DNA of 41,474 nucleotides from Parvularculaceae bacterium (GTDB lineage Bacteria; Pseudomonadota; Alphaproteobacteria; Caulobacterales; Parvularculaceae), in contig JAJFFW010000111.1 of assembly GCA_021776435.1 (NCBI GenBank), forward strand, positions 1-41,474, read 5' to 3'. The translations under genes were made by a program, and so were the position numbers. A model generated the notes under the pieces. It did not search any database. It was not told the origin of the DNA and saw only the letters and a program-made list of their open reading frames with translations. Shown here one piece after another: positions 13,498 to 39,156 of this stretch (the first letter of the stretch is position 1; each line of letters opens with the position of its first letter).

Positions 13498-13512
13498 ACC
13501 TGGAGCATCAAA

Positions 13513-14850: not shown

Positions 14851-14852
14851 GT

Positions 14853-15524
14853 ATGATCAAAATTGCGCAAAGAGGGTTTAGCTTACCGGAAGTTTTGGTG
14901 GCGCTGTTTATTTTCTCGACGCTTGCCGCCGTTGGAGTTTATGCGCTCCGTCTGAGTGTTGATGCTCGTGATCAACTCGTCATGGCGGATGATAGATTAA
15001 AAGAATTTGAAACCGCAAGAGCGATTATCAGAGAGGACATGGCGCAAATCGCTTTGCGCCCGGTGCGCGACTCGTTTGGAGCGTCTGCAGGTCCCGCCTT
15101 TCAAGGGGGAAGTTTCTTGGCTCAAAATCCGCGACGCATCAGCGAGGAACGGCTACTGACGTTTGTGCGGCGGGGTTGGACTAACCCGGAATGGAGCGCT
15201 CCGCGATCCTCTTTGCAATATGTGGAATACGTCTTGCTGGATAATGCGTTAATACGGCGAGTTCGTCCGTATCTTGATGATGCTAGAAACCAAGATAGAC
15301 TAGATCGAACTCTATTATCCGACGTGTCATCATTGAGGGTTACTTTCTTGTTAGGAGAAGTATCCGGACGACTTGACTGGGTGGGAGGGTGGCCACAGTC
15401 CGCCAGCTCTACATCGGCCCCAACAGCGATAGATATGGCGATTGAGACCCAGCGTTTCGGAAAATTGCATCATCTATTTTGGATCGGGGATGTCGACCCG
15501 TTTGGGGAGCCAGAGAATGACTGA
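14853..15524 (+). CDS. gspJ: Minor pseudopilin GspJ
   Basis: This 223-residue minor pseudopilin begins MIKIAQRG^FSLPEVLVALFIF with +5 Glu. A long periplasmic domain follows, containing the usual GspJ pattern (QIALRPVRD, LTFVRRGWTNP, LQYVEYVLLDNALIRRV). Two bases separate it from gspI, and its end overlaps gspK by eight bases. It forms the tip complex with GspI and GspK. Confidence 0.95.
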   Translation: MIKIAQRGFSLPEVLVALFIFSTLAAVGVYALRLSVDARDQLVMADDRLKEFETARAIIREDMAQIALRPVRDSFGASAGPAFQGGSFLAQNPRRISEERLLTFVRRGWTNPEWSAPRSSLQYVEYVLLDNALIRRVRPYLDDARNQDRLDRTLLSDVSSLRVTFLLGEVSGRLDWVGGWPQSASSTSAPTAIDMAIETQRFGKLHHLFWIGDVDPFGEPEND

Positions 15525-16512
15525 CATCGCAAATTCCAGGCGCCAAAAAGGCGCGGCGCTGATCATCGTTCTTCTCCTGGTCGCCACATTGGCTTTCATC
15601 GTTCTCGCGATCAGCCAACAAACTGCGATTGCGACGCGGCGCAGTCTAAATGCTGATGCGCGAAGTGAGCTTTTTTGGCGTGAAATTGGTGTGGAAGCGT
15701 TGACGGTTAGAATGCTGGAGACGGCGCTTGAATTAAACAGTCAAAAAGTCACGCTGGATAGCGAATTATTTACGACGCCGTTCCATCTTCCGATGGAAGA
15801 TGGGGCAGGTCGGATTCGGTTTGAAGATCTTACAACCTGCTTCAATGTAAATAGCCTCGTGGTGGAGGACGATACAGGACGGTTGAAGCGCAATGAAAAT
15901 TCCGAGTCCGAATTTACGGCATTGTTGGAAAGTATAAATCTGGGAGCTGGACGGTCGGCTTCGATTGCCGCCACAATCATCGATTGGATCGACAATGATG
16001 GGCAAACCTTGTCAGGCGGCGCGGAGGATGGTTTTTATACCGCTTTGCCCGCACCTTATCGTACCGGGGGAGCATTACTCGCTGATATTGGTGAAATGCG
16101 TGCGATGAAAGGTGTTGCGCAGAGTATTTTTGAGGACTTGCGTCCATTTCTCTGTGTGCTTCCCGATAGCGAACCATCGCGTATGAATATCAATCTTATG
16201 ACGCCTGCCCATGCGCCCCTGCTTGTGGGGCTGTTGGAAGGTGAAATCAATCGTAATGAAGCGTCCAACATAATCGCACAACGCCCACCTGGCGGATTCG
16301 GTTCCGAAGCCGATTTTATACAATCAGTTGAAAAACTGTCAGACAATCTCCCCGAAGGGTTCCAACAGAGAGTCGCATTGACATCACAATATTATAAAGC
16401 CGACGCAACGTTGACATATGGGTCTTCGCAGACGGAATTAACAATGAAGTTTCGTGTTGATGAGGGCGGCAAAGTGCGAATTTTTGCGCGTCATTTCGGA
16501 GTAGAACAATGA
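15517..16512 (+). CDS. gspK: Minor pseudopilin GspK
   Basis: This 331-residue large minor pseudopilin sits at the tip of the pseudopilus. The ATG at 15517 with GGGGAG upstream gives the short leader MTDIANSRRQKG and then AALIIVLLLVATLAFIVLA. As known for GspK, the +5 residue is not Glu (Ile here). The large helical domain shows the family pattern TCFNVNSLV, IIDWIDND and MNINLMTPA. Earlier in-frame start codons inside gspJ give no sensible leader and were rejected. Overlaps gspJ by eight bases. Confidence 0.95.
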   Translation: MTDIANSRRQKGAALIIVLLLVATLAFIVLAISQQTAIATRRSLNADARSELFWREIGVEALTVRMLETALELNSQKVTLDSELFTTPFHLPMEDGAGRIRFEDLTTCFNVNSLVVEDDTGRLKRNENSESEFTALLESINLGAGRSASIAATIIDWIDNDGQTLSGGAEDGFYTALPAPYRTGGALLADIGEMRAMKGVAQSIFEDLRPFLCVLPDSEPSRMNINLMTPAHAPLLVGLLEGEINRNEASNIIAQRPPGGFGSEADFIQSVEKLSDNLPEGFQQRVALTSQYYKADATLTYGSSQTELTMKFRVDEGGKVRIFARHFGVEQ

Positions 16513-17702
16513 CTGGAAGTTATTTTCTGCTCCTCGGTTGGTCTCCCGACGATTCCATCCGTTGGGCTAGTACAAGAGATGGCGCAGTTACTGAATCGGG
16601 CCAATATAAGAATGCGGAAGACCTTCTGTCCTTCCGCGCGCTACTGACCGATGGTGACAAGGTTGTTGCGATTCTGCCTGGTGAGCAGGTCGTTTCACGC
16701 TTAATCGCTTCGCCACCGCGGAATGTTCATAAATTTTTGGCGGCGGCAAAATACCTTCTTGAAGATAACCTCGGCGAGTCGCTGGATGAAATCCATATCG
16801 TCACTTCGATGATGGGAAAAAAAGGGGTGGTGGTCGCGACAAAAGACTGCGTAATGGAAAGATGGATCCAGACATTTAAACATCTTGATTTTATGCCCGA
16901 CGTTATTGCGCCGGACTATTTTTGCCTACCGATAAATGATGGGAAGCCAACACTGCTCTTTGATGAGGGCCGAATAAGTGTTGGATTCGGCGACCACGGA
17001 TTCTCCATTGAGAACAATCTCGCGAAGCGGGTTTTGCCACTTACTTTCGCGAAAGTATCTCTCGACGACATTAATGTCTTTGGTTCATGTGGGCCGAATG
17101 GAGAGGGCGTCGAATGGGTGGCGGGAATGAAGGAGCCACTCACAACTATGGAATTATTAGCGCTGTACGCGCGCGGTATACATCAGTCCCCCACAGTCAA
17201 TCTGTTGCAGGGGAAATATAAAACGCGCCGATCCTGGAGCGATGGTTTGGCTGTTTGGCGCAGGGCGGGAGCATTGGTTGCCTCTCTTCTGGTGCTCTTT
17301 CTCGCCTGGTTCGTTGCAGACGGCGTACGTGATCTCCGCGTAGCGGCAACACTAGAGTCCCGGGCGACGGCTCTGCATGCTAAAACGTTCCCCGATGCTG
17401 CGATTGACGATCCGCGCGCCCACGCACGCACGCTGTTAGCTGCAGATCGTCGCATGAGTTTCGTCATGCTTTCGACCCTGGCGACTGAAGCAATTGCGGA
17501 AGCGAAACACGTAAGAATTGAACGTCTCCGTTATGACAGGTCGCGCGGGCAATTCGTCATGAGTGTAAGGAGTTCACAAGACAATCACATTGAGACGTTT
17601 CGTGAGGCGCTTCTGGCGCGTGGCGTTACGGCGGTAGACAGTGGGGGCTATCGTCGCGCTGGAGAGGATTGGGTTGGTGATATGGTGGTGAGACTGCCAT
17701 GA
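16509..17702 (+). CDS. gspL: Type II secretion system protein GspL
   Basis: This 397-residue bitopic inner-membrane protein recruits the GspE ATPase. A cytoplasmic actin-like domain (about 1-245) is followed by one membrane helix (about 255-277, GALVASLLVLFLAWFVADGV). A ferredoxin-like periplasmic domain (about 320-397) follows. Sequence similarity to model GspL proteins is weak, so the call leans on size, topology and its exact position between gspK and gspM. It overlaps both neighbours by four bases (ATGA). Confidence 0.9.
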   Translation: MTGSYFLLLGWSPDDSIRWASTRDGAVTESGQYKNAEDLLSFRALLTDGDKVVAILPGEQVVSRLIASPPRNVHKFLAAAKYLLEDNLGESLDEIHIVTSMMGKKGVVVATKDCVMERWIQTFKHLDFMPDVIAPDYFCLPINDGKPTLLFDEGRISVGFGDHGFSIENNLAKRVLPLTFAKVSLDDINVFGSCGPNGEGVEWVAGMKEPLTTMELLALYARGIHQSPTVNLLQGKYKTRRSWSDGLAVWRRAGALVASLLVLFLAWFVADGVRDLRVAATLESRATALHAKTFPDAAIDDPRAHARTLLAADRRMSFVMLSTLATEAIAEAKHVRIERLRYDRSRGQFVMSVRSSQDNHIETFREALLARGVTAVDSGGYRRAGEDWVGDMVVRLP

Positions 17703-18175
17703 AGGAATTTTGGGCTGAGCGTTCCGAGCGCGAACATATTTTGATAATACTTGCTCTCGTTGTTTTTACAGTGGGCGTTTGTTATTTCTTTATCATCACA
17801 CCTCTTGGGCAGTGGCGTGACGCCGCCGCAGGCAGGGAAGCACGCGCCGAAGCGTTCTATGCGCTTGTTGCGGAGGTCTCGGAATCCGGTATTAGCGAGA
17901 GGGAGGCGATTGGAGAACGAGAGAGAAATACACCTTTGCGAAATACGCTGATGCAAACAGCACGAACCAACGAAATCACTCTCAGCTTTGTCAATAGACG
18001 TACTGATGGATCAATTGAGGTCAGTGCAGAACAGAGTAATCCAGAAAATTTATTCTTATGGATGCGTGAGCTTGATGAGCGTTATGCAATTCAGATCATC
18101 ACTGCTGATATCGCACAAGCAAATGACCAAGGGTCACTTGTGCGTGCTCAGCTCGTATTTCAGCGAATGCAATGA
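17699..18175 (+). CDS. gspM: Type II secretion system protein GspM
   Basis: This 158-residue bitopic inner-membrane protein has a short cytoplasmic tail, one membrane helix (about 15-37, ILIILALVVFTVGVCYFFII) and a periplasmic domain with coiled and ferredoxin-like parts (LFLWMRELDERYAIQIITADIA). GspM pairs with GspL. The ATG overlaps the gspL stop by four bases and the end overlaps gspN in the same way. Confidence 0.92.
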   Translation: MKEFWAERSEREHILIILALVVFTVGVCYFFIITPLGQWRDAAAGREARAEAFYALVAEVSESGISEREAIGERERNTPLRNTLMQTARTNEITLSFVNRRTDGSIEVSAEQSNPENLFLWMRELDERYAIQIITADIAQANDQGSLVRAQLVFQRMQ

Positions 18176-18993
18176 CAACTCTTGAGAATACAGAATTGAA
18201 TTCTCCTGATCGTTTCGTCGACATACGGTTATCTGCGCGCGTGTTGGCAGTTGTAGGGGCGGTGACTTTTGTTGTTACTTTCGTCGTGTTTGTCGCATTT
18301 CTCCCTGTCTCCATTTTGGGTAACCTTCTTTACGGAAAGCAGATCGTAAATTTCGACTATGAAACTGTAGAAGGAACGATCTGGAACGGCGCAGCACACG
18401 ATCTTAATATCTCAGGTGTTTCAATAGGCGAGGCACGGATTGCGTTTCATCCATTGTCGTTATTGACTGGCAAGATAGCAGCGAATTTTCAGACTGAAGG
18501 CGGCGCCGTAGAGAGCCGCGGAGTTCTGGTTCTTGGTGTCGGCGGTTTTACAGCTTTGCGGAATGTGGAGGCGGTGATTGATCATTCGGCATTTGCCAAC
18601 AATTATATTATGGGTGTGCCGGTTGAGGGGCGAACACAGACGATGATTTCCCAGGTTGTGTTCACCAAAAAGGGCTGCGCCCTCGCAGAAGGCTCTCTTT
18701 GGACGGACGTGCTGAATGAACCGGCCCTGCTCTTCACCCAGCAGGCATTTGAACTTTCTGGAAACATCAGATGCGATTCAAGTGATATTTTGATTGACCT
18801 TAGCGGTTTTAATGACAGTGGAGACGCCCAGATATTGATGCGCTTGCGGACTGGGTTGTATTATGATCTTGCTGTTACGGCATCACCTGCGAACCAAGAC
18901 ACGGAGCAGGCGCTCATGGCTTTTGGTTTTGAAGACAAGAATGGGGCGTTGACTTATAACTTGGCCGGTGAACTGAAGGGATCTGGATTATGA
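18172..18993 (+). CDS. gspN: Type II secretion system protein GspN
   Basis: This 273-residue protein has an N-terminal membrane helix (about 25-50, VGAVTFVVTFVVFVAFLPVSIL) and a periplasmic beta-rich domain with the T2SSN pattern (VEGTIWNGAAHDL, IAFHPLSLLTGKI, CALAEGSLWTDVL). GspN is present only in some T2SSs and its exact role is not settled. It overlaps gspM and the following lipoprotein gene by four bases each, so it is part of one translationally coupled chain. Confidence 0.92.
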   Translation: MTTLENTELNSPDRFVDIRLSARVLAVVGAVTFVVTFVVFVAFLPVSILGNLLYGKQIVNFDYETVEGTIWNGAAHDLNISGVSIGEARIAFHPLSLLTGKIAANFQTEGGAVESRGVLVLGVGGFTALRNVEAVIDHSAFANNYIMGVPVEGRTQTMISQVVFTKKGCALAEGSLWTDVLNEPALLFTQQAFELSGNIRCDSSDILIDLSGFNDSGDAQILMRLRTGLYYDLAVTASPANQDTEQALMAFGFEDKNGALTYNLAGELKGSGL

Positions 18994-22025: not shown

Positions 22026-22163
22026 ATGTCCCCTTTTTGGCCGACCGCATTGCGAGCGGGTTGCCACGCCCCAAACCACGTCCCAGTCATGCGCCTATTT
22101 TAAATCGCCGGCAGGCTCTCTTTCTCGTTCATTCCTTTGTGGCCATGTAAAATCAGCGCGGCG

Positions 22164-25100
22164 CTACTTATCGACCTGATCCGAGACGAAGTAAGGATCA
22201 CCGTTATCGTCGAGGAACAGCTGCTCCATTTCTGTCCTTTGGAATGGACGTGACCCGAAGCGTCCGAGAACGGCGATCTGATGACCTGTTTCATCAACGG
22301 CGCGATCGCGGTCAAGCCCTTTGGACAATGCAAGAGCTGGCTTCTTGGTTTTGCGCCACGCAATCAATTCCGGTTTTGGTTCGGCTGAAAAGCCATAGAA
22401 ATTAGGTTGCGATGCCGGACTGGTGAGTTGCAGCACCTTCAAGCCGTTGGCGCCGTCTGCGACATAGGCGAAGAGCGAAGCATTGGTCGTGCCGACAATG
22501 ACGTCACGGGCGTCATTGAGTGCGCCATCGAACGTCACCTTCTGATAGACAACCGGGTCTTCGGGGTTTTTGACATCGATGATCACGAGGCCTTCTTTCT
22601 TCGCTGCAACATAGGCGTAGGTGCGGGCCAAATAGATTTTCTGCGCGTCTGAGAGACGAATAAGCGCACCATCGACAAGTTTCGGCGCGTCCATCTTGGT
22701 GACATCAAAAACTTTCATGCCCTCGGCATCGGTCACAAATAGATAGCGGAATTGCAGCGCACTTGCGCGCATGTCGTTAAGGGGGATCACCGCGGTTGTT
22801 TTTGGTTTTAAAGGGTCATCGAGATCGAGAACGACAAGCCCCGCATCGACCGCCACGTAAGCATAATGCCCAGCGAGAGTGATATGCCGCGCCCCCGTCA
22901 GAACGCCGCCATCATTCCAGGTAAGGGCGCGTTTGAAAAAGTTATTGCGTGGCTCACCATCGGCAAGGGTGTTGATGTTGACTAGAATTAAACCCTCAAC
23001 CGCATCTGTAATAATCGCGTAATTATAGATCGGGTGGAACGCCTGCTCTCCGTTTGCCTTACGCATTGCCTCGGTGTTGCGTGCTGGATTGATGGGTTGG
23101 TTTGTCGGCAGGGCCATGCATGTCGCATTGGCTGTCTTGACGTGCATGTTTTGACCGAGCGGTGAAAGCGGCGCCGTGACGATCCGTTCCGAGAACGCTT
23201 TGTTACCGATATTCGCCACGTCATATGCTCGGAATCCACCCTTTCCTTGTGCTGTATACAGATATTCGCCGCGAAGTTGAAGGCAACGAACCGCCCCGCT
23301 GGTATCCTGCGCCACATTCGCAATTTCTTCCAGCGCGCCCGTCTCACCGGAAAACTCGTTATCACGGTCAAAGGTGTCGCCGCGCGTCCAGTTGATCAGT
23401 TCGCGATTATTTTGTTCAACATGCGCCTGATAATAGTCGGGATAAGCATATTTGTGCAGATAAGAACCAAACAGCGCCTGTGGCTCCTCCCATTCAGTTA
23501 CGCGCACGGCTTCGATTGCGCCATCAAGTCCGACCCAGGCGTGTAGCCCGATGAAATTAACGAAGTTCGTACCCAGCAATAAGAGCTGCGCCATTATGGC
23601 GTTGTTGTCATTATCTTTTGATAGATGACAGTCAGTACATGTCTTTGTTTCGGTCTTGCGAACGGTATGTGGAAAATGTGGTGCAAAGGCCTGGCTTGAA
23701 AACCCTATTGCGGAAATCGGCGGCTGTTGGACATAGATACGCTCGCGATTGACGTTTGTAGAGGACAATATAAGTGCTGATGATGACCGAACGGGAGCAA
23801 TTTTGTTATTTTTTGTGTCCTGATGTTTCCCTAGTTGGAACATTTGATCACGTGCAACTTGCGGGTTGTAAGTGGCAAAATTTCGCGTCGTTTCCCCATC
23901 ATAATGGTGTATCTCAGTTTTCCAGTTCGCTTCGATCGGTAGGTGGCATCCACCACATGACGTCGTCCACGACAGATGGCATGCGTAACACTCCATCTCA
24001 TCGCTCTTGTGAGCGAGATTGGACATATCAGCCTCAACACCCCATTTGAGTGCGCCTTCTGCGTTGCGCGACAAAAGTTTTGCGCGGGCGGATTTCGGAT
24101 TGTAGTTTGAGGATGACGGGTCAACGGAATCCTTGACCAGCGATAATTCCCATTCCAGGTTCGTGTCTATAATGGAGCGTTGAATGAGTTTGCGTTTGCC
24201 GGATCGGTTCACCCATTCAAACCGATACCGACCGTCCGGGTTGCGCAATACAGAAAGATCCCGACCAGCCGGCGAAGCCGCAGGTCCTGAGGTCTTCAGG
24301 GTCGGGTAATTCATTGCCGTGCCGTGACAATCTCGGCAACCGATTTCGACGGCGCTGGCAACTTCTCCATGTAGATAGCCGTTGCCGTGGCTATCTTGAG
24401 CGTAATGACAGTCTGCACACTGCATGCCCACCTCTGCGTGAATAGACATCATGTGAACGGTCTTACCGGGATTTTTACCGATAGAGACGAACTTCCCTTC
24501 GTCGGCTTTGCGCCATTTTTCGGGGTCGTCTGGCGCAACGATATTGTTTTCTGCGTCCAGGAGATTGCCTGCCTGGTCGCGCTTAAGAATGGCGCGGAAA
24601 TTCCAACCATGCCCATGATAGTCCGCAAACTGCGTGTCTTTAAGATCTGGATTCAAGTCATAAACATTACGGAGGAAGTCAAGATCCGCCCACTTGCCGC
24701 GAACCGACGCCTGTTCGGGGTTGCGATCCAATACAGCGCGCTGTTCTTCGATCGTCGGGTATTTCTGTTCTTTCGGCCACATATGCGGCGCGTCGGATTC
24801 GTAATCCCACATCGTGTATCCAAGAAATGAATTCAAAAACATATTCGGCTGATGCATGTGGCAAGCCATGCACTGGGATGTCGGAATCGCCCGCGAAAAG
24901 GCGTGCTTTATCGGATGCCCGGATTCGTTTTTCGGAATCGTCGGGTCGACAGTCGCGGTCTCACCGTCACGACCGAATTGCGTGTAAGTGAGCGCATGTC
25001 GCGGCTCGCGGTCATTGGCGTAAATGACATGGCAGGAGGCGCATCCCGACGACCGATAGTCACCTGGTTGATCGTTTGTGCCGAGAAACCACGTGAAGGG

Positions 25101-26099
25101 ATCGTTGAGCCGGGTCTTGTGAATATTGAGAACGGGGATCGCGACACGAAGGCCGGTGCCGGCGCCGCGGTTCGATTGATGGATATCCGGACGGCCCGGC
25201 TCTTCAAGTCGTTGCAATTGGCCGGTGGCGTTCGGCAGGCCAACCTCCGCGAATTGTGTCGCGATATTTCGACCGCCGCGTTCGAAGACGCGGAATATAT
25301 CCGCAGGGGGTAGAACATGCCAGGTCGGCATAGGGGCGAGAAACGGCAATACGCCTCGGGCGATAGCAGCAAGAGGGGGTGTGGTCGGGCAACCAACCGG
25401 AGAGTCTGTTGTCGGTTCGCCAGGGGAGCACAAAATCGCTGGCTCGCCGTCTCGTGTGTATGCTTCGCCGAGCACGTAGCGTTTGAACGGCAAAATGCCA
25501 TTGTTATAAGCAGCGCCGCCCCATAACATCGCACCCGTCGCCATCATTGAACGTTCGGCGGCGAGGATGTCGCGCATGTGACACGCGCCGCAAGACTCTC
25601 GCGCGACACGGTAATCCGATGGATTGACGAAACGAATGAACTCCGGCGACTCCTTGTTCAAGAGGGCGAAGCTGCGTTTCGGATTGGCGGAACTCGGGAA
25701 GTGCCAGCTTTCCGGGTATCGTGGTAATACGTGGGCTTTATCGCGTTCTTGAGCGTACTCAATGCTTTGTGTCGATAATCCCCTGGCGGAGAATACGGTC
25801 GCGTTACCGCCATGGCAGTCCGTACAACCCAACCGTATGTCGGCTGTGGGGTTATGCATCGTCGGGGCGTCGGTGGCGGTGTGGCAACTATGGCAGCCGG
25901 CGCTTTTCGCCTCAACCGCATTGCGATCCTGAAAGACAGGTGCAGGCGGCGCTGTGACACGCGTATAATCAATCTCGCGTGGTTTTTCTCCTTCCGACGC
26001 CAGAACAACGTTGCGCGTCAAAAACCCCAATACAAGCGCACCGGCGAGCGCCGCAAGGCGCGCCCAACGATAGAAGGATATGTTGCCTGCTTGTTTCAT
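22164..26099 (-). CDS. Exported decaheme cytochrome c with C-terminal LVIVD-repeat propeller
   Basis: This 1311-residue exported protein has an N-terminal hydrophobic signal (about 10-34, ending near VVLASEG). It carries ten CXXCH heme c motifs, with first cysteines at 69, 92, 170, 353, 410, 561, 588, 704, 715 and 821. After the last heme, from about residue 935 to 1245, come repeats of the LVIVD type (GLVVLDLDDP, GMKVFDVTKMDAP, GLVIIDVKNPEDP, GLKVLQLTSPA), predicted to form a beta-propeller. No lipobox or C-terminal anchor is seen. It starts four bases after the barrel gene stop, so it is co-translated with it. The probable role is the outermost electron carrier, with the propeller binding a partner, surface or substrate. 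It is not a recognised MtrC, OmcA or Omc homologue. Confidence 0.85.
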   Translation of the reverse strand: MKQAGNISFYRWARLAALAGALVLGFLTRNVVLASEGEKPREIDYTRVTAPPAPVFQDRNAVEAKSAGCHSCHTATDAPTMHNPTADIRLGCTDCHGGNATVFSARGLSTQSIEYAQERDKAHVLPRYPESWHFPSSANPKRSFALLNKESPEFIRFVNPSDYRVARESCGACHMRDILAAERSMMATGAMLWGGAAYNNGILPFKRYVLGEAYTRDGEPAILCSPGEPTTDSPVGCPTTPPLAAIARGVLPFLAPMPTWHVLPPADIFRVFERGGRNIATQFAEVGLPNATGQLQRLEEPGRPDIHQSNRGAGTGLRVAIPVLNIHKTRLNDPFTWFLGTNDQPGDYRSSGCASCHVIYANDREPRHALTYTQFGRDGETATVDPTIPKNESGHPIKHAFSRAIPTSQCMACHMHQPNMFLNSFLGYTMWDYESDAPHMWPKEQKYPTIEEQRAVLDRNPEQASVRGKWADLDFLRNVYDLNPDLKDTQFADYHGHGWNFRAILKRDQAGNLLDAENNIVAPDDPEKWRKADEGKFVSIGKNPGKTVHMMSIHAEVGMQCADCHYAQDSHGNGYLHGEVASAVEIGCRDCHGTAMNYPTLKTSGPAASPAGRDLSVLRNPDGRYRFEWVNRSGKRKLIQRSIIDTNLEWELSLVKDSVDPSSSNYNPKSARAKLLSRNAEGALKWGVEADMSNLAHKSDEMECYACHLSWTTSCGGCHLPIEANWKTEIHHYDGETTRNFATYNPQVARDQMFQLGKHQDTKNNKIAPVRSSSALILSSTNVNRERIYVQQPPISAIGFSSQAFAPHFPHTVRKTETKTCTDCHLSKDNDNNAIMAQLLLLGTNFVNFIGLHAWVGLDGAIEAVRVTEWEEPQALFGSYLHKYAYPDYYQAHVEQNNRELINWTRGDTFDRDNEFSGETGALEEIANVAQDTSGAVRCLQLRGEYLYTAQGKGGFRAYDVANIGNKAFSERIVTAPLSPLGQNMHVKTANATCMALPTNQPINPARNTEAMRKANGEQAFHPIYNYAIITDAVEGLILVNINTLADGEPRNNFFKRALTWNDGGVLTGARHITLAGHYAYVAVDAGLVVLDLDDPLKPKTTAVIPLNDMRASALQFRYLFVTDAEGMKVFDVTKMDAPKLVDGALIRLSDAQKIYLARTYAYVAAKKEGLVIIDVKNPEDPVVYQKVTFDGALNDARDVIVGTTNASLFAYVADGANGLKVLQLTSPASQPNFYGFSAEPKPELIAWRKTKKPALALSKGLDRDRAVDETGHQIAVLGRFGSRPFQRTEMEQLFLDDNGDPYFVSDQVDK

Positions 26100-26103
26100 C
26101 GCA

Positions 26104-27846
26104 TTAATAGGTCAACACCGCATTGAAAAGGACGGAATAATAAATTCCTCGTCTCTCATGATCGTCAAAAAGATCCTGAAACCCGTCGCCTGGCCGCAGG
26201 CCCGCACCGGACAGACGCAGTACAACATTTTGAATAAATCCGGGCCTGTAGATGACAGAGCCGGAGAAATCCCAGCCGATGTCTCTGTCGATATTTCCCT
26301 GGACGCGAAGCGCTTCCAATGTGTTCGTCTTGTGAAACCACAACCGGTTAGCATTAACGGAGATGCGCAGTGGCGCCATCACGTCAAAATCAGCGCCGAC
26401 ACCCGCAAGGATAATGCCTGGATTGTTGAAATTTGATTGGCCTTGTTCTTTCGACGATCTCAGATCTGGCAATACACCGTTGCGGCCCGAAACGCCGATG
26501 ACGCGACCACCACCGATAAATGGTATGGATTGCCGAACCCAGTAACTTGTATCGGCGCCGGCGAATTGCGGATTTTCTAAAATGGCGTCGAAGCCCCGTT
26601 CCGTATTGTCGTGCGGGTCGCCATCGCCACTTGCGAAAAGCCCCGACAGTCGAATCCGCATCCAATCCCGATCATAGGACGGCTCAATAGCAGCGAAAAA
26701 TGATCGTATATCTGCTGTTTTACCGGTGAAAATATTATTTCGATCTTCCCCCAACGCGTAATAGGCAGAGGTTGTAAGATTAAGCCGGCCAATTCGCCCG
26801 TCAGTATTGTAACCAAAATATACAATGTCGTAATTTCGGCCGCGCAAATTACCAATCAATGCCGGCCGCACCGGAAAGCCGTTTTTGTCGATCTCGATAT
26901 CGTCAGCTTCACGATTTAAATTGTAGGCGACAGTTATTTGACTGGTCAGCCCGGGAAACGGTAGATCTTGTCTGTAGAGATTGGCGAAAAAGACATAATC
27001 TTCGCGAGGGCTGGTCGTTATGTCGTTCAGCCCTGAATTTGTATCTTTTTCAAGGCGCGTGAAGGCGGCTAAATTGTATTGATACCGATTATTGTCACGG
27101 TTACCGAAAACCCGTACGCCAAGTTGGTTGTCCTGAAAGAGGAATCCTCTGAAGTCGCTCGAAAACGGCTGGATGCCGATGCGGACGGAATCGAAATCGT
27201 ATCGCTCAGAAACATTTCTGAGGTGGTAATCGACGAAAGCTTCTTGCAACCCGATAAAGCCGTCGTGGCGTTTGACACCTTCGGATGGCTCCACATGAAG
27301 AATGCGTAGCTCCTCCACCTGTGCGAAATTATAATTGAATACGGGCGTAAGGCGGAATTCGAGATCCTGCGGCTTATAGGCGGTTGATCCTTTGATCAAT
27401 GACAGGTTGGTGATCAGGTTTTGTGAAAAGAAGAAACTATCGGAGTCACCGAAGATATCGAGACTGTCAGGGCGCGACGTCGATTGAACGCCAACGGGCA
27501 GTGGAAATGAGCGTGGTTCCACGACGGTGTCCGAGATAAGAGAAGCGGCGAAAAACCAATCGTCCGTGCCAAAGATCGGTCTGTCGCCTTTCAACGTGTT
27601 TTGGTGATACGGATCCCACCATCGGGTTTTTAAAAGCCCTAGGCTTTCGGCGAGTCGCCATCGGTCCGGCACTGCGAGCATGCATTGTTCGAAAAGATCG
27701 TTTGGCGCACGACAATCTTTGTAATCGGATAGGCGCGGTGCTGGCACGGCGCCGCGATTGTTCGGCGTTTCTTCGGCCTCCTGCGCTGCACCAGAACTGA
27801 TCAAGGCGATGCTGGAGACGAGTGTCGAAAGGGTGATTGATCGCAT
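26104..27846 (-). CDS. Predicted outer-membrane beta-barrel protein
   Basis: This 580-residue protein has a signal peptide (MRSITLSTLVSSIALISSGAAQ). An N-terminal segment contains two cysteines (KDCRAPNDLFEQC) and the stretch WWDPYHQNTLKGDRPIFG. It then shows many alternating amphipathic strands ending in aromatic residues, and the C-terminus is VLFNAVLTY. This is the pattern of an outer-membrane barrel of perhaps 18-24 strands. I do not recognise a named family. The ATG at 27846 has AGGGGA upstream and lies four bases after the lipoprotein gene stop; longer starts would put the signal peptide inside. Packed directly before the decaheme gene, it is the best candidate for the sleeve or anchor carrying electrons across the outer membrane. 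Confidence 0.85.
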   Translation of the reverse strand: MRSITLSTLVSSIALISSGAAQEAEETPNNRGAVPAPRLSDYKDCRAPNDLFEQCMLAVPDRWRLAESLGLLKTRWWDPYHQNTLKGDRPIFGTDDWFFAASLISDTVVEPRSFPLPVGVQSTSRPDSLDIFGDSDSFFFSQNLITNLSLIKGSTAYKPQDLEFRLTPVFNYNFAQVEELRILHVEPSEGVKRHDGFIGLQEAFVDYHLRNVSERYDFDSVRIGIQPFSSDFRGFLFQDNQLGVRVFGNRDNNRYQYNLAAFTRLEKDTNSGLNDITTSPREDYVFFANLYRQDLPFPGLTSQITVAYNLNREADDIEIDKNGFPVRPALIGNLRGRNYDIVYFGYNTDGRIGRLNLTTSAYYALGEDRNNIFTGKTADIRSFFAAIEPSYDRDWMRIRLSGLFASGDGDPHDNTERGFDAILENPQFAGADTSYWVRQSIPFIGGGRVIGVSGRNGVLPDLRSSKEQGQSNFNNPGIILAGVGADFDVMAPLRISVNANRLWFHKTNTLEALRVQGNIDRDIGWDFSGSVIYRPGFIQNVVLRLSGAGLRPGDGFQDLFDDHERRGIYYSVLFNAVLTY

Positions 27847-27850
27847 CACT

Positions 27851-29863
27851 TCATTTCCCCTGACAGACATTTTGCTCATCTGAGTCCACAAAGGGCGAGA
27901 ACGGACAATTGATATAACGCAGGCGCACTTGTTTGCCGTTAACACTAATAACAATGCGGTCGGCGCGTATTCCGTTTAGCGCATTATTGATCGCGCCAAG
28001 TCGTTCGCCAGCGCGATCAACGCCGAGAAATGAGATCATGTCATCTTGATCGATGCCGTCGCCGGAAACGCCAATCCCCCCCACTAACACCGACCCGCGA
28101 TAGATCGGCACGCTGCCCGGAAAAATCTGAATGCCGTTCTGTAACCGATTTTGCATACCTCCTAGGCTCGCGATGTCGGGAAGGAAGGTGCATTGCGCAG
28201 GCGTATCGGCGCCGCCACCTAATGTATGCGTGATATGAATGAGAATATTCTCGATTATGAGTGACGCCTGGAGACCCGTCGCGAATGGACTCCATTGAGA
28301 GATCGGTAATGAGAATGGACCGTTCGGCGTTCCGACTTCACCGTCGGGGAAAAAAGGTCGAGAGAGATTGCCGCCAGCGCGGTCGGAAAAAGCAAAATCG
28401 CCTGTGAGGGCTGATGGGTCTGGGATAAAATTGCGTATGTCAGCAACGTAGCTTGCGGGCGATTTGGTAACGTTAGGGCTTGGAACCGCGGGCGGCGCCG
28501 TTGCAAGGAGATCAGAGGCCGCGATCGCGTTCGAAAAGAATGACGCTGTACGGGCTTTCTGTAGAGAGACATCGGTGCCGAAAATTGGTGCGTCCGGGCC
28601 GCGAACAATACCGAGAATGGCGCCGTTTGTATCGACCACTGATACGCTTACCTGAGCGCGACTGTCTAACGGTCTTCTGATCTGCGCCCGCGCCGCGGTC
28701 ATGACGGTGAATGCTTCTTCAAGGATGGTGCGAACCTCGGAAGCTGTTAGGGGTTGCGGCACGCCTGCGCCGTCCGTGCCGCCAGTGGGAGGGTATCGGT
28801 TATTGCCAGCGCCGTCGGTCAAAACGAACATGTCTGTGTTCGCATATTCCGTGACCGTCGCGGCGCGCATGCCCGAAGACTCAGCACCGTAGGCAACGCC
28901 TGCAATGACACCGCCCATAGTGGCGCCATCGAAATATGATGTTACGTCAACCAGGGCGCCGAAGACGCCGTTGACTGAAGCGAAGGATGCTGCTGCAGGG
29001 TCGGCGATCAGGTCGCTCGTTACAATATCGGAAAAGCGTAATGTGGCGCCGTCGACCGCGATGCGTTCGGCGCGAATTTCCGCCGGAGCTTCGAAACCTG
29101 TTGAGGCGGCCAGCGCGATCGCTTCTTCGTCACTGGCGTCAATGTCAAGTATGTTAAGGTCAAAGCCATAATCGCCGTCAGCGACGATGCCAATACCGCC
29201 AACGACAAAGCCATCCTTATAAAGAGGGAATCCGCCTGGGTCCGCCGCCAACCCTAATGGCGCACGGTGCGGGCCGATGCGTGCGCCGCCTGATATGAAG
29301 CGGGTAACAAGATCAGAACAGGGAAGTTGGCTAAACTGCACGCCAAAAAGTGGCCCGCTTTCCAGACCGGCTGTCGACGGGCTCGGTGGAAAATGTTGTT
29401 GAACGATCATGCTGGCGGTGCGGGTTGAAAAAGCATTGCCGCCGGACGAAAGATAAGCGCCGGTGATCGCTTTTGAAATCGCCGCAAGAGTCGCTGGCGC
29501 GGCCAGTCCCTGAAGTGCTGTGTTTGTTCCGGCGGGGCCGGCGCGCACAGTTGTCGTCGCCGAAGCGCCTGTCATCTGGAAGACGCCAAGCACGTTGCCG
29601 GCGCGATCGACGATGGCGATGGTAGCGGCCGTTTTGCGCGCGCGCGCTTCTTCTACGGCTTGCGCAATAATGCGTTCGACATCGCTGACAGTGAGATTAC
29701 GAAGCTCCGGTTTGAACAAAGGCGAAGCGCTAGGCGCCGGGGGTGGAGGCGGTGGCGCCGTTGGGGGAGGCAATATGGAGTTGCTGTCGCCTTCGCCCCC
29801 ACATCCGACGATAACGAAAAGTGCGGTCGCAAGCGCCGCCCATTGTCCCCACTTTTGCCTCAA
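27851..29863 (-). CDS. Lipoprotein with two GlcG/HbpS-like domains
   Basis: This 670-residue lipoprotein has the lipobox VIVGC with Cys21, followed by Gly-Gly and a proline-rich linker (32-47). Outer-membrane location is therefore likely. Two GlcG/HbpS-type domains (the family includes heme-binding HbpS) can be seen. The first, about 55-270, has LTVSDVERIIAQAVEEA, ATIAIVDRAGNVLGVF and FPLYKDGFVVGGIGI. The second, about 375-640, has LTASEVRTILEEAF, VSVVDTNGAILGIV and VPIYRGSVLVGGIGV. Both contain long insertions. The start is TTG at 29863 with GGGGG about nine bases upstream. It is packed four bases before the barrel gene. A role in heme or redox-partner binding at the outer membrane is inferred. 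Confidence 0.85.
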   Translation of the reverse strand: MRQKWGQWAALATALFVIVGCGGEGDSNSILPPPTAPPPPPPAPSASPLFKPELRNLTVSDVERIIAQAVEEARARKTAATIAIVDRAGNVLGVFQMTGASATTTVRAGPAGTNTALQGLAAPATLAAISKAITGAYLSSGGNAFSTRTASMIVQQHFPPSPSTAGLESGPLFGVQFSQLPCSDLVTRFISGGARIGPHRAPLGLAADPGGFPLYKDGFVVGGIGIVADGDYGFDLNILDIDASDEEAIALAASTGFEAPAEIRAERIAVDGATLRFSDIVTSDLIADPAAASFASVNGVFGALVDVTSYFDGATMGGVIAGVAYGAESSGMRAATVTEYANTDMFVLTDGAGNNRYPPTGGTDGAGVPQPLTASEVRTILEEAFTVMTAARAQIRRPLDSRAQVSVSVVDTNGAILGIVRGPDAPIFGTDVSLQKARTASFFSNAIAASDLLATAPPAVPSPNVTKSPASYVADIRNFIPDPSALTGDFAFSDRAGGNLSRPFFPDGEVGTPNGPFSLPISQWSPFATGLQASLIIENILIHITHTLGGGADTPAQCTFLPDIASLGGMQNRLQNGIQIFPGSVPIYRGSVLVGGIGVSGDGIDQDDMISFLGVDRAGERLGAINNALNGIRADRIVISVNGKQVRLRYINCPFSPFVDSDEQNVCQGK

Positions 29864-29930: not shown

Positions 29931-31433
29931 TTAAATATATCCGTGTGCTAACATTGCTTCGCCAACGCGGACAAAACTCGCTACATTGGCGCCCGTTTGA
30001 TAATCGGCGACACCGTTTACAACCGGGGCATATTCCACGCACTGCGTATGAATGGAGCGCATAATTCGCTCAAGTTCTTTTTCCACCTGGTCACGTGTCC
30101 AAACCAGGCGCATGGCGTTTTGCGCCTGCTCAAGGCCCGACACTCCAACACCTCCAGCATTTGCCGCCTTAGCCGGGCCGAATAAAACGTTGTTATGCTT
30201 TAAAACATGAATCGCCTCTGCGGTCAGAGGCATGTTAGCCCCTTCCGCCAGCACTTCGAGACCATTGCGGCACATGGTGTCAGCCATGCTTTCATCGATT
30301 TCATTTTGCGTTGCGCATGGAAGGCCAACCTGGCAGGGAACGGCCCACGGGCTCTTGCCAGCGTGGTAAGTTACGCCGTGCGCTTTATTGGCAAAAACGG
30401 AAAGCGATTCGCGGCGCACTTCCTTGACGTTTTGTAGAATCCTGAACGAGTCTTCGTTGAAGCCATCCTTAACATGTGCGAAGCCGCGACTGTCTGAGAC
30501 GGCGACGACTTTTGCACCCAACTGCATAGCGCGTTCGAGGGCGTAGAGAGCAACATTGCCGGCGCCGGAAACCACGACGGTCTTGTCTTTTATTGTTTTG
30601 TTGTGATGTTGCAGCATGTCTTCGGCGAAAACGACCGCGCCATAGCCGGTCGCCTCCTTGCGAATTTCACTGCCGCCGAAAGCGAGCCCCTTGCCAGTGA
30701 GAACGCCAGTGTAGCGATTGGCGAGCTGCTTATATTTACCGAATAGATAGCCGATCTCGCGTCCTCCGACGCCAATATCACCGGCTGGCACGTCGACGAC
30801 TTCGCCAATATGTCGGTATAACTCACTCATCATCGAATGACAGAAACGCATGATCTCTAGGTCCGAACGACCCTTCGGATTAAAGTTAGACCCACCTTTA
30901 CCACCACCCATCGGCAGGCGTGTCAAAGAGTTTTTGAAAGTTTGCTCAAAGCCTAAGAATTTCAGTATACTGAGAGTAACACTGGGGTTGAACCGTAAAC
31001 CGCCTTTATACGGACCGAGAGCACTGTTAAATTGAACGCGATAGCCTTTGTTCGCATGCGGTATGCCGTTATCATCTTCCCATACGACACGAAACATAAT
31101 GACCCTATCGGGCTCTGTCATACGTTCGAGGAGTCTCGCGTCGCGGTATCGATGATTATCAAGGTAAAAGGGCATCACCGTTTCGACGAACTCGAATACA
31201 GCCTGATGAAATTCCTGTTCATGCGGGTTGCGTCGTTTAAGACCGGCCATGAAGTCGTCGATCTCGCTTACGGCGCCGCGCCCGCCCGACCCGATGGCAA
31301 ATTTCGCGGTTGGCGCGCTGGGGTCTCTCGTGGGTGGGTTGGTCATGTTTTGATGCTCCGATTCAGATGATGACAGTTTGTCCGTGCGCTGCCCTGCCGC
31401 CGCTTGCGGATTGTGCTTCTTTCGCCAAAACAT
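29931..31433 (-). CDS. gdhA: NADP-specific glutamate dehydrogenase
   Basis: This 500-residue enzyme interconverts glutamate and 2-oxoglutarate plus ammonium with NADP(H). It matches the hexameric 450-residue E. coli GdhA family: YKGGLRFNPSV, the catalytic lysine loop LPMGGGKGGSNFNPKG, DIGVGGREIGYLFG and the dinucleotide site VVSGAGNVALYALE. The first about 50 residues are an extra hydrophilic extension. The ATG at 31433 has GGGAGA seven bases upstream. The internal ATG at 31346 (MTNPPTRDPS) has GGAG upstream and would give a standard length, so both starts are possible. It sits inside the cytochrome block, with 80 bases before and 67 after, an unexpected place for this housekeeping enzyme. 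Confidence 0.95.
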   Translation of the reverse strand: MFWRKKHNPQAAAGQRTDKLSSSESEHQNMTNPPTRDPSAPTAKFAIGSGGRGAVSEIDDFMAGLKRRNPHEQEFHQAVFEFVETVMPFYLDNHRYRDARLLERMTEPDRVIMFRVVWEDDNGIPHANKGYRVQFNSALGPYKGGLRFNPSVTLSILKFLGFEQTFKNSLTRLPMGGGKGGSNFNPKGRSDLEIMRFCHSMMSELYRHIGEVVDVPAGDIGVGGREIGYLFGKYKQLANRYTGVLTGKGLAFGGSEIRKEATGYGAVVFAEDMLQHHNKTIKDKTVVVSGAGNVALYALERAMQLGAKVVAVSDSRGFAHVKDGFNEDSFRILQNVKEVRRESLSVFANKAHGVTYHAGKSPWAVPCQVGLPCATQNEIDESMADTMCRNGLEVLAEGANMPLTAEAIHVLKHNNVLFGPAKAANAGGVGVSGLEQAQNAMRLVWTRDQVEKELERIMRSIHTQCVEYAPVVNGVADYQTGANVASFVRVGEAMLAHGYI

Positions 31434-31513: not shown

Positions 31514-32851
31514 TCATTGTTCCAAAAACGTCTCGATTTTGCGCAGCGCGTCCCTAAATCTAATCTGGTCGTACGTAGAAGGGCTTTGAACATGATTGCT
31601 CGCCTGCTCAATAGCCGTTGTCATTTCTGTGGAATTCAATTCTAGGTCAGCTGATAGTCGTTGCACTGCAAAGAGCGCTTGCTCGGCGGCGGCGTAATTT
31701 GTGTACCGTTCCGCGAGCGAAGCATCGACGACTTCGCGAAGAATGGCGCGAACCATTGCAGGATCTGAGAAATCCGCAGAAAGAACGCGTGACGCCATTT
31801 CATCTGTCGTCGCGCGAAGAACGATCGCAGAACGACGAAATTGCTTACTGCTTTGTAAAGATGCAGCGTGCAAAGCTCGTCCGTTGTTTTCTAAACGTTC
31901 AGCGAGTACTGTATCAAGCCCTCGCGCCGCGGCGATTAACATGAAAAGATTGGCGTCGTTAAGAATAGGAACGCCGGGACCGAGCGGACGGAGCGGATTG
32001 GGCCGCCAGCTCAAATCCTTTAAACCGCTTGAAATTGGCTGGTGACAGGCGTGGCAGTCGAAAAAGAAAAGCTCAGGGAATGGACCTTCTCCGCTGATCT
32101 TTTTATCAAGCAACAGATCTAGTGTACGTTGTAAGGCGCTTACCTGGCCAATCGCCCAGACCTGGGCGCCCGGGGCGACCGTTTTACGTGTGCTATAGCC
32201 AGCGTCGGTGCGATGGTGCTGTTGAATGGTTGTATAAAGATCGAGCTCGAATTTAAGTCTCGGATGTCCGGCGCCCATGATCTTATGCGAGACGAATTGA
32301 TTTTTAGCGCCGGAACCAAGGTGACAGTTTAAGCACAGCTGAGCGCGTGCGGAGGGGTCTTCGGTCGGATACAATCCGGCCTCGACGTTCAGCGCATGGT
32401 CTGCGCTGCTACGGTGAAATGCGAGCCAGTCTTGTGCGCCTCCGTGACAGGCTTCACAACCGACTCCGTCACTGATCTGAAACCGTTCGCTGCGCAGCGT
32501 ATCGGGCACATTGTCAGCGTGACAGTCTAAACACTCGTCAGCCTTTTGCGCTGGGCCAATCCCCAAATTGCGAGCGATACGCTGAGCATGGGGCGTCAAC
32601 AAAACCTCATACGCGCGTGAGTGCGCGCCTGATTCACCGAACGCCCGCCAACGGAAGTATTCGTTTTGTCCGACGACAGGACCGGCGCCCGGTCCCGCCA
32701 CCTGATCGCCATGGCATCCGGCGGTCGCGCAGCTCGCAACGCCGGTATGATTATATCCGTCCATCAACGGCGCCGACGGCGCCTGCGCATACACGGACGC
32801 AAGGGTGCACAGCGCAAATGAAAAGATAGATATTATCACTGTTCGGAACAT
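31514..32851 (-). CDS. Periplasmic pentaheme cytochrome c (c554-like)
   Basis: This 445-residue protein has a cleavable signal peptide (MFRTVIISIFSFALCTLASVYA). Its first heme site is the unusual CX4CH (C41-C46-H47, CATAGCH). Four normal sites follow: CLDCH, CEACH, CLNCH and CHACH. The pattern of hemes in the N-terminal 260 residues resembles cytochrome c554-type multiheme proteins. The C-terminal 150 residues have no heme and are helical. The ATG at 32851 overlaps the upstream gene stop (TGATG). It probably shuttles electrons in the periplasm between the anchored decaheme protein and the outer membrane. An enzymatic role cannot be excluded. Confidence 0.85.
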   Translation of the reverse strand: MFRTVIISIFSFALCTLASVYAQAPSAPLMDGYNHTGVASCATAGCHGDQVAGPGAGPVVGQNEYFRWRAFGESGAHSRAYEVLLTPHAQRIARNLGIGPAQKADECLDCHADNVPDTLRSERFQISDGVGCEACHGGAQDWLAFHRSSADHALNVEAGLYPTEDPSARAQLCLNCHLGSGAKNQFVSHKIMGAGHPRLKFELDLYTTIQQHHRTDAGYSTRKTVAPGAQVWAIGQVSALQRTLDLLLDKKISGEGPFPELFFFDCHACHQPISSGLKDLSWRPNPLRPLGPGVPILNDANLFMLIAAARGLDTVLAERLENNGRALHAASLQSSKQFRRSAIVLRATTDEMASRVLSADFSDPAMVRAILREVVDASLAERYTNYAAAEQALFAVQRLSADLELNSTEMTTAIEQASNHVQSPSTYDQIRFRDALRKIETFLEQ

Positions 32852-34677
32852 CACTTCGCCCCATCACTGAATTTTACGACGGCGTTAGTCGATGTCATCA
32901 AGGGCGCGTTATTGCTATCGTCATGATAGCTGTGGCAGGTAAGACAATCCGAAGCGATCGCCTTTGTTCCGCTCGTATCATTATGGCAGGTGCGGCAGAC
33001 GGTGATGCTAGGCATTAGAACGTCCGAAGAGTGCGACGATGTTTCTGCGCGATGACAGTCGACGCAATCCGTGTTGCCGGCCATGTGCTGAGCATGGCTA
33101 AATTGAGCTTTCGGCAGATACCGGTTGGTGAGTTTTACGGGTTGCATGCGCGGCATCCCACTGTTGGCGCCGGAATCAATCGTCGTGTGGCATTTCTGAC
33201 AAATGCCGTCTTTGGAGAATATACGGGCGATCATATTTTGGGTGTTGGTGCGCGCGTCGACAAAAGCGCTGCTCTGCGATTGTGCGCGGCGCGCGCGCGC
33301 CTCAGCGCTCAACTGGCGCTCCAAGACACCCGACGGCCGATCGCCGAGCAATAACTCCGTCGCTTTGGCCAAATAAAAGTCCTCCAGCGTAGCGCGCACG
33401 TCTTCGGGGTCGCCATGGGGAAGGAATCTCACGTTAGCATTTTGCTCCGTGACGAATGCCAGCGAATGACAATCGCCGCAATGAAGCTCCATTTCAATTG
33501 GCGTGATAAATGCCCCCGCAGCGTCCACTTGATGACAATCGGCGCAGTCTAGCTTATCGCCGTAACGCGCCTGCGATACAGGTCCCAAAGTAGCAAGTTT
33601 GCGGATGACCTCTTTGTCTTTCAGATGAAAGTCATGGGGAAATTTAAGGCCGTTATTTTCCTTGGGATGCTCGACCAGCGAAATACGTTGCACAGAAAGA
33701 ATGTCAGGTTGTGGATCAAGAATGATTCTGGGTTTGAATTCCGGATGCCAATGGGAGAAGTTTATGACGTTGACAAGCGTTGTTTCGTCGAACCGTCTGT
33801 CCATGCTGCTATGGCACTCAACGCACATTGATGACGATGTCGGCGTGACGCCGTTCGCGCCATTGTGCTCGAAGTGACAGGAACCGCATCGCTCTTCCGG
33901 TATGTTGAGCTGGTTGTGCAAGCTGGATAGCCATCTTTCTCTGGTGGTTTTATCCGGTGCTGCAGCAACGAGTGATTGCGCAGGGGCGTGATTGCGCGTC
34001 TGGCTATGGCACGATAAACAAACGTCGTCTCGAACCCGCACAAAGGTTTGTTCATGGCATACCCGGCAGTTCGCACCAAGATTTGCATGAGCCGATGACA
34101 AGGCGCCGGAGAGCCAATTCTGATTGGCGATCGGTGATAGGTAATCAATTGTGCTACGTTGCTGTCTCGGTTCACCTGATTCATCTAGGTAAACAATGAG
34201 TGGAATAGCAAGAAAGACGGTAAAGACCAAAACGGTGACTGCCCACGCACTAATTCGTTTGTCCGGCGCGTAGCCTTTCATCGAGAAGATCTCGTCTTCA
34301 TCGCCGCTTTCGCCGACAGCCGTAGGAGCTTCAACAAGCTCTATTTCGATTAAGAGATCGGCGTCTGCATCTGCGGGTCCTAGAGTAATCTTGTAGGGCC
34401 CTATTCGAACGTCGGCGTCTTGATCAATAGAGAGGTCACGACGACGAATAAGTGCCCCATCTACTCGCACGCGGTAATCCGTGCTCGCTTCAATCCGAGC
34501 CTTTTCTGGAGTTCTACAAATGAGGCGTGCATGATGAAGTCCAACACGCAAATCCGGCAGATGCACATCGCAATCTGTCGCGCGCCCAAATGTGACATTG
34601 TCCTTATCGTAGATCGTCGGCCTGACAGTAATGCGACCGCCAGGACGTCGTCGAATGAATTCAACTCGTATCGCCAT
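32851..34677 (-). CDS. FHA domain - membrane helix - decaheme cytochrome c fusion
   Basis: From the ATG at 34677 this is 608 residues. Residues about 23-98 form an FHA fold (FGRATDCDVHLPDL, LHHARLIC). The FHA Arg32 and His49 are kept, but the usual phosphothreonine-contacting Ser is Gly46. An acidic linker leads to one membrane helix (142-164, SAWAVTVLVFTVFLAIPLIVYL), then a periplasmic part with ten CXXCH sites between residues 204 and 578. The basic KR before the helix supports a cytoplasmic FHA and a periplasmic cytochrome. It starts seven bases after the membrane b-type gene, and its stop overlaps the next ATG. Upstream in-frame starts add a non-FHA tail and were rejected. It likely receives electrons from the b hemes. 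I know of no described protein with this architecture. Confidence 0.85.
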   Translation of the reverse strand: MAIRVEFIRRRPGGRITVRPTIYDKDNVTFGRATDCDVHLPDLRVGLHHARLICRTPEKARIEASTDYRVRVDGALIRRRDLSIDQDADVRIGPYKITLGPADADADLLIEIELVEAPTAVGESGDEDEIFSMKGYAPDKRISAWAVTVLVFTVFLAIPLIVYLDESGEPRQQRSTIDYLSPIANQNWLSGALSSAHANLGANCRVCHEQTFVRVRDDVCLSCHSQTRNHAPAQSLVAAAPDKTTRERWLSSLHNQLNIPEERCGSCHFEHNGANGVTPTSSSMCVECHSSMDRRFDETTLVNVINFSHWHPEFKPRIILDPQPDILSVQRISLVEHPKENNGLKFPHDFHLKDKEVIRKLATLGPVSQARYGDKLDCADCHQVDAAGAFITPIEMELHCGDCHSLAFVTEQNANVRFLPHGDPEDVRATLEDFYLAKATELLLGDRPSGVLERQLSAEARARRAQSQSSAFVDARTNTQNMIARIFSKDGICQKCHTTIDSGANSGMPRMQPVKLTNRYLPKAQFSHAQHMAGNTDCVDCHRAETSSHSSDVLMPSITVCRTCHNDTSGTKAIASDCLTCHSYHDDSNNAPLMTSTNAVVKFSDGAK

Positions 34678-34684
34678 TACTGAA

Positions 34685-39095: not shown

Positions 39096-39156
39096 CGAAT
39101 TGACCGAATTTGGGTAGAATTTTTACGTGCACTGCGGTCTGACCGTAGGGGGGATA

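Follow-up and report, generated by a model that had tools for sequence, protein, structure and literature searches.

A decaheme cytochrome with a beta-propeller as the probable outer-membrane terminus of an NAD(P)H-linked trans-envelope electron conduit

The window analysed here, 41,474 nucleotides of contig JAJFFW010000111.1 from a Parvularculaceae bacterium (assembly GCA_021776435.1), carries a gene, P0001, for a protein in which a ten-heme c-type cytochrome is joined to an LVIVD beta-propeller. Judged from its sequence and its gene neighbourhood, P0001 is probably the terminal outer-membrane cytochrome of an NAD(P)H-linked electron conduit that crosses the cell envelope under cyclic-nucleotide control. 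Membership of a trans-envelope conduit, which weighs most in this proposal, is very likely; outward electron flow is favoured with less assurance, and exposure of P0001 at the cell surface is probable with slightly less assurance again. What the analysis shows directly are the domains of the proteins, the ligands of hemes and clusters, the make-up of the operon, and the extent of conservation and co-occurrence.

The gene is read from the minus strand, the plus strand of the same interval being rich in stop codons. An earlier sequence-only reading had placed the open reading frame exactly, giving no strand, and had described an exported protein of 1311 residues with ten hemes and about 300 residues of LVIVD repeats. 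Its parts are:

22164..26099, minus strand: P0001, decaheme c-type cytochrome with C-terminal LVIVD beta-propeller, 1311 residues (open reading frame, Pfam, CxxCH count and alignment)
25995..26099, minus strand: Sec-type signal peptide of P0001, about residues 1–35, without a lipobox (cleavage site estimated by eye)
23610..25904, minus strand: heme-bearing part of P0001, residues 66–830, with ten CxxCH motifs and 13 invariant non-CxxCH histidines
22419..23564, minus strand: beta-propeller of P0001, about residues 846–1227, containing the LVIVD repeats; Cys939 is invariant and Cys994 nearly so (low confidence for the first blade)

The N-terminus bears a hydrophobic segment that peaks at residues 15–33, CxxCH motifs follow at residues 69, 92, 170, 353, 410, 561, 588, 704, 715 and 821, and the Pfam LVIVD model (PF08309) matches with 58.2 bits against a cut-off of 20.2, so the earlier description holds in all but the length of the propeller, taken up below. 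The LVIVD match is present in all 19 of 19 aligned relatives. For the remaining comparisons, 116 homologs of P0001 were aligned, leaving out loci L004, L011 and L013, where the longest open reading frame picked was not the cytochrome. Every one of the 116 keeps exactly ten CxxCH motifs, and the ten-heme count is therefore not due to chance. The 13 further histidines of the heme part are also invariant, and thus provide enough ligands for ten bis-histidine hemes. In the propeller, Cys939 is kept in 100% and Cys994 in 99% of the sequences. The unusually long spacers that the sequence-only reading had pointed out (170–353 and 410–561) are real, with mean frequencies of the commonest residue of 0.78 and 0.81. 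Since their conservation is close to that of the heme-dense parts, the spacers are very probably functional.

P0001 closes an eight-gene operon on the minus strand (38078 to 22164), in the order P0008, P0007, P0006, P0005, gdhA, P0003, P0002, P0001. Five of its seven joints are gaps or overlaps of fewer than 10 bases, if P0006 and P0002 begin at their likely Met codons (picked by eye), and the two joints around gdhA measure about 80 and about 67 bases. The other products are:

26104..27846, minus strand: P0002, outer-membrane beta-barrel, 18 strands in the model (likely start at Met residue 37 of open reading frame 26104–27954)
27851..29863, minus strand: P0003, lipoprotein with repeated HbpS-like domains (PF03928; lipobox Cys21 kept in 96% of 70)
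29931..31433, minus strand: P0004, NADP-type glutamate dehydrogenase gdhA, an optional neighbour found in 30 of 82 loci
31514..32854, minus strand: P0005, c554-like cytochrome with four CxxCH and one CX4CH (Pfam, motif count)
32851..34677, minus strand: P0006, FHA domain, one membrane span, ten CxxCH and ten invariant spare histidines (likely Met at residue 22 of open reading frame 32851–34740)
34685..35560, minus strand: P0007, inner-membrane protein of di-heme b type with two WX3HX13H motifs and SGxxG (motifs, conservation)
35568..38078, minus strand: P0008, pyridine-nucleotide/FAD domain, two cyclic nucleotide monophosphate (cNMP)-binding domains and 16 invariant cysteines for four [4Fe-4S] clusters (Pfam, conservation)

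The 16 cluster cysteines of P0008 are invariant (n = 51), as are His 97, 111, 269 and 283 of P0007 (n = 54), which lie inside the two WX3HX13H motifs at 93 and 265; SGxxG stands at 134. Among relatives of P0007, both histidine motifs are found in 52 of 53 and SGxxG in 44 of 53. The ten spare histidines of P0006 are invariant (n = 53), and ten CxxCH motifs are present in 53 of its 56 homologs, the three with six motifs being taken as truncated. The five hemes of P0005 are kept (n = 67), with four CxxCH and the CX4CH in 66 of 66 relatives. The presence of gdhA in the operon may point to a connection with the NADPH pool. Past the operon start, at 39127–40566, lies a gene for a TPR and probable barrel protein, and similar proteins are seen in few loci.

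In the conduit that we propose, P0008 would take electrons from cytoplasmic NAD(P)H onto its FAD and [4Fe-4S] clusters, from which they would cross the inner membrane via the two b hemes of P0007 and then be relayed through the periplasm by P0006, with ten hemes, and P0005, with five. The outer head would be made up of P0002 (barrel), P0003 (lipoprotein) and P0001, presumably as parts of one complex with P0001 facing outward and delivering the electrons to an acceptor. Its propeller may dock to the barrel or the lipoprotein, or may itself bind the acceptor. Given that the carriers are mostly aerobic, the likeliest acceptors would be soluble Fe(III), quinones or O2. Binding of a cyclic nucleotide to P0008 would switch the electron flow.

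The gene set is found together well beyond the window. A genome scan gave at least 593 matching stretches, which is not a gene count because two patterns can match one gene, and 80 loci were kept; with two plasmid regions these make 82 P0001 loci, many of them truncated by contig ends. P0002 is a neighbour in 78, P0003 in 70, P0005 in 67, P0006 in 59, P0007 in 55, P0008 in 53 and gdhA in 30. The run P0008-P0007-P0006-P0003-P0002-P0001 recurs in all 11 alphaproteobacterial neighbourhoods fetched, some genes being split over stretch ends, and the same order is seen in another proteobacterial class where contigs are long enough. The sequence-only reading had suggested that the propeller could attach the cytochrome to the surface, the barrel or a substrate such as a mineral or partner cell; that the decaheme–propeller protein works with the neighbouring barrel is supported by this conserved gene order.

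The distribution of P0001 is patchy, with 20 carriers among 289 genomes of the class sample (one of them, G007, a fragment; an ExtM-like match in G112, 29% over 181 residues, was not counted), 14 among 60 of the window's family and 11 among 398 across the phylum. The gene is also carried by 13 plasmid records. In the other proteobacterial class, 36 of 274 genomes gave matches and 11 hold a full-length P0001, twice in G817, whose contigs 12 and 14 (L170–L173) bear two separate copies of the gene set; G747 has a partial protein of 430 residues, and the remaining genomes gave short matches, either at a single heme pair or in propellers. P0008 occurs in all 20 P0001 genomes of the class sample and in only six others (this sample comprised 278 genomes for P0008, gspD and the pentaheme discussed below, slightly different from the 289 used for P0001). 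Median identity to the window's proteins is highest for P0001 (67.5%), the most conserved protein of the set, followed by P0002 (62.7%), P0003 (60.5%), P0008 (58.2%), gdhA (54.3%), P0007 (49.8%), P0005 (40.3%) and P0006 (32.2%). The outer trio P0001–P0003 is thus more constrained than the periplasmic wires. Among the matches listed, most of the named carriers belong to sphingomonads, erythrobacters, Phenylobacterium and comparable groups of aerobic heterotrophs; hyphomonads are represented too.

Control by cyclic nucleotides is suggested by the cNMP-binding domains of P0008 together with a cyclase and a phosphodiesterase encoded at the loci. A nucleotide cyclase domain is present in 32 of the 82 loci, combined with CHASE2 in a Sphingobium protein, and a phosphodiesterase resembling SpdA/CpdA, scoring below the cut-off, lies beside P0006 in the Sphingobium locus. 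A CcmH-like TPR protein is encoded near the same operon. In the window, a gene for an Na+/H+ antiporter with its own cNMP-binding domain occupies 19509–22079, between the type II secretion genes described below and P0001; among the 82 other loci, nothing matches it with more than 42 bits.

Structure prediction of the P0001 chain, suggested in the sequence-only reading, was made with AlphaFold2 for residues 44–1243 from 35 sequences; it gave the propeller fold and left the heme part at low confidence. The mean predicted local distance difference test score (pLDDT) was 51.5 and the predicted template modelling score 0.47, and the propeller alone was well modelled, residues 881–1180 of the model (protein residues 924–1223) mostly having good confidence. 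Structural alignments extend it back to about protein residue 846, and in the model the propeller appears nearer 380 than 300 residues, with Pfam LVIVD covering part of it. The two long spacers, which may form extra domains, lie mostly below a pLDDT of 50 and show no reliable fold. Outside the propeller the model is too poor for heme geometry to be taken from it. The propeller aligns with the archaeal surface-layer YVTN domain 1l0q, which we take to be seven-bladed, with a Z score of 25.0 and 2.2 Å over 253 residues. Hydrazine synthase (5c2v_B) is also among the propeller matches, but many unrelated propellers score alike, and no function was drawn from it. The structural matches cover the propeller alone, so that the lack of an MtrC-like chain among them is uninformative on the heme part, and solved structures searched with phmmer and with profiles offered no template usable for that part. 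The model of P0002 has 18 long strands and a mean pLDDT of 72.5 (residues 1–46 and 406–452 are unreliable), and aligns to AlgE with a Z score of 27.9 and 2.9 Å over 365 residues.

The nearest relation of the gene set is a predicted one. He et al. (2017; PMC5566968) predicted a cluster, PCC4, with a porin, four-, five- and ten-heme cytochromes and redox genes, whose inner-membrane protein carries two WX3HX13H motifs and SGXXG, a signature common to PCC3 and PCC4. P0007 has the same motifs as the PCC4 inner-membrane protein, and the operon likewise encodes a decaheme (P0006), a cytochrome with four CxxCH (P0005), a redox protein and a porin; P0005–P0008 fit the inner part of PCC4. The outer part differs, the decaheme–propeller protein, the AlgE-like barrel and the HbpS-like lipoprotein standing here in place of a pentaheme and porin. 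No relation was detectable between the porins of PCC4-like loci and of this cluster, nor between their head cytochromes; for the porins, hhalign gave a probability of 0.3, using a profile of two sequences taken from PCC4-like loci and not from the paper. The pentaheme also has no match in the window's genome (98.58% complete).

The six class-sample genomes with P0008 and no detected P0001 have loci with P0005–P0008 or parts of them. In two, G060 and G105, the P0008 locus additionally encodes the pentaheme and an approximately 535-residue barrel, and from their gene content these would be PCC4. The pentaheme is present in five of the six (the exception, G025, was scored P0001-negative although its contig is cut and P0003 is present) versus one of the 20 P0001 carriers; in G052, G120 and G258 it lies on a different contig from P0008. 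In a second sample of 23 genomes, it is found in two of 17 P0001 carriers (G160 and G858). On contig 1 of G858, at about 340–365 kb (L177/L178), the pentaheme and weak relatives of P0005, P0007 and P0008 lie a few kb from a complete P0001 operon. The pentaheme has other partners too, since a relative of it is carried without P0008 by 15 more genomes, in seven of them at 40% identity or less. We read the pattern as one inner module that can be combined with alternative outer heads. The cluster is new as a variant of the predicted PCC4, of the porin–cytochrome kind, its inner part being known as a prediction; no description of it was found in the open-access literature, supplements excluded, and named terms looked for in PMC4245776 and PMC7005843 do not occur there.

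Among curated families, the closest to P0001 are ExtM, far under its cut-off, and generic c-heme models. Membership of the ExtM family (NCBIfam NF040943) was rejected at 64.3 bits against a cut-off of 800. This cytochrome of selenite/tellurite operons has distant similarity to the heme part of P0001, while the ExtM-like proteins (about 800 residues, 11–12 hemes) are without conduit neighbours. At L184–L188, ExtM-like proteins of about 800 residues with 11 hemes are encoded beside two small, apparently exported proteins, with neither porin nor propeller. The sequence-only reading had proposed a comparison with MtrC and OmcA, and by the models used P0001 is not a member of that family: TIGR03507 was unlisted at an E-value of 0.1, PF22113 gave 20.2 bits against 30, and the lipoprotein signal of the family was seen in none of the 116 homologs. 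Nor is clear homology to a soluble catalytic-heme enzyme apparent, a possibility that the same reading had named, as P0001 has no CxxCK motif and no Pfam match of NrfA or HAO type at an E-value of 0.1. For P0002, an MtrB-type porin was rejected, with no MtrB/PioB Pfam match at an E-value of 0.1 and none among 36 relatives at 0.5; the alginate export porin model (PF13372) had no match in P0002 and weak ones in two of the 36 relatives (best E-value 6.6e-4). The MtrCAB system of Shewanella shares with the conduit a porin and ten-heme cytochromes in a trans-envelope path, with an exported terminal decaheme (PMC7198977). In contrast to MtrCAB, the present set has no MtrB/PioB match, 18 versus 26 strands in the barrel model, no lipoprotein anchor on the terminal cytochrome, a propeller and an NAD(P)H-linked cytoplasmic partner. 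The cytoplasmic-side partner of MtrCAB is quinol-linked.

A possible export route lies 3 kb past the end of the conduit operon:

7926..18993, plus strand: complete type II secretion system (T2SS) operon, gspC to gspN (gspH by position only)

Shewanella MtrC depends on the T2SS (PMC12175506), and export of P0001 by this system is plausible here, not in general. The gsp genes adjoin the operon in G029, G087, G157, G160, G200 and G255, and in a tree of 56 of the 116 P0001 sequences the linked alphaproteobacteria fall in neighbouring clades, so the linked cases count as a small number of independent events. The 82 loci, most of them with flanks of 10 kb or less, yielded no gsp gene. A strong gspD match is present in 15 of the 20 P0001 carriers versus 23 of 258 others in the class sample, phylogeny not being removed. 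As a general exporter of P0001 the T2SS was rejected: four complete carriers (G145, G244, G612 and G525) have only weak, sub-cut-off secretin matches, so the system is not obligatory, and in the window's family gspD is matched in 35 of 35 genomes, 13 with P0001 and 22 without. The window's genome has a second, weaker GspD match on another contig. Directly upstream of the Sphingobium operon (L031, 4524–12677), a two-partner secretion pair with a 6.3-kb gene could provide another route of export.

Several points weigh against P0001 as a surface terminus with outward flow, among them the two secretin results just given. A lipobox-like motif before the first heme is found in 0 of 116 sequences, which speaks against a lipid anchor. 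P0001 has about 128 residues per heme, where 60–70 is typical (PMC5566968), and is in this respect more enzyme-like than wire-like. The modelled 18-strand barrel may be narrow for an MtrA-like wire, its radius being about 16.5 Å as compared with 23.5 Å for 26 strands, the number in MtrB (PMC7198977), by the standard barrel formula with an assumed shear of n+2. The heme part of the P0001 model is unreliable as a guide to heme spacing and docking. Finally, He et al. modelled PCC4 with inward electron flow (PMC5566968).

The alternative that survives best is that P0001 is a dedicated outer-membrane reductase or oxidase, its conserved spacers building an active site. We regard this as possible, if doubtful. 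Both the number of residues per heme and the HbpS-like lipoprotein partner agree with it, as does the conservation of P0001, the highest in the cluster with spacers and propeller included, but the protein lacks CxxCK and a match to any known catalytic-heme family, and its invariant histidines suffice for ten bis-histidine hemes. Such a role may in any case be compatible with a conduit. It is rather unlikely that P0001 is located on the periplasmic side of the outer membrane and serves a periplasmic partner only, the barrel being an ordinary small-molecule porin. The AlgE/OprD-like 18-strand model, the missing lipobox and the four complete carriers without a strong secretin match would suit that arrangement; the near-invariable linkage of barrel, lipoprotein and P0001 and the conserved cysteine pair of the propeller argue against it. 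Electron uptake, in which the same conduit would run inward and oxidise an outside donor such as Fe(II) or Mn(II) to feed the inner-membrane protein, is unlikely, given a cytoplasmic partner, P0008, of NAD(P)H/FAD type and carriers that are for the most part aerobic heterotrophs. In its favour, the inner module is common to the PCC4-like clusters; He et al. modelled inward flow for PCC4, and by their account the habitats fit Fe and Mn oxidisers (PMC5566968).

The outward, NAD(P)H-linked conduit invites one wider comparison. Eukaryotic ferric reductases and NADPH oxidases use NAD(P)H, FAD and two b hemes with HX13H pairs, and all of these features recur here, though on separate polypeptides and with a c-heme relay that would continue to the outer membrane. 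P0007 itself has no ferric-reductase Pfam match at an E-value of 0.1, and the inner-membrane protein of PCC4 was compared with FRD by He et al. (PMC5566968). That the gene set is a counterpart of these enzymes in common aerobic bacteria, a cyclic-nucleotide-gated wire from NAD(P)H to a surface head that would form superoxide from O2, or reduce Fe(III), outside the cell, with this head and the PCC4 pentaheme exchangeable on one conserved inner module, is a long shot. The superoxide idea comes from general background, and no paper on it was found in the open-access literature.

Discussion of extracellular electron transfer usually centres on anaerobes that reduce metals and on bacteria that oxidise iron. 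The proposed outward conduit, complete and tightly conserved, would place an NAD(P)H-linked system of this kind in the alphaproteobacterial groups named above and in another proteobacterial class, partly on plasmids. The near-exclusive choice between two unrelated heads on what appears to be one inner module would allow head specificity to be tested directly by removing genes, and several of the carriers, such as Sphingobium herbicidovorans, are in culture.

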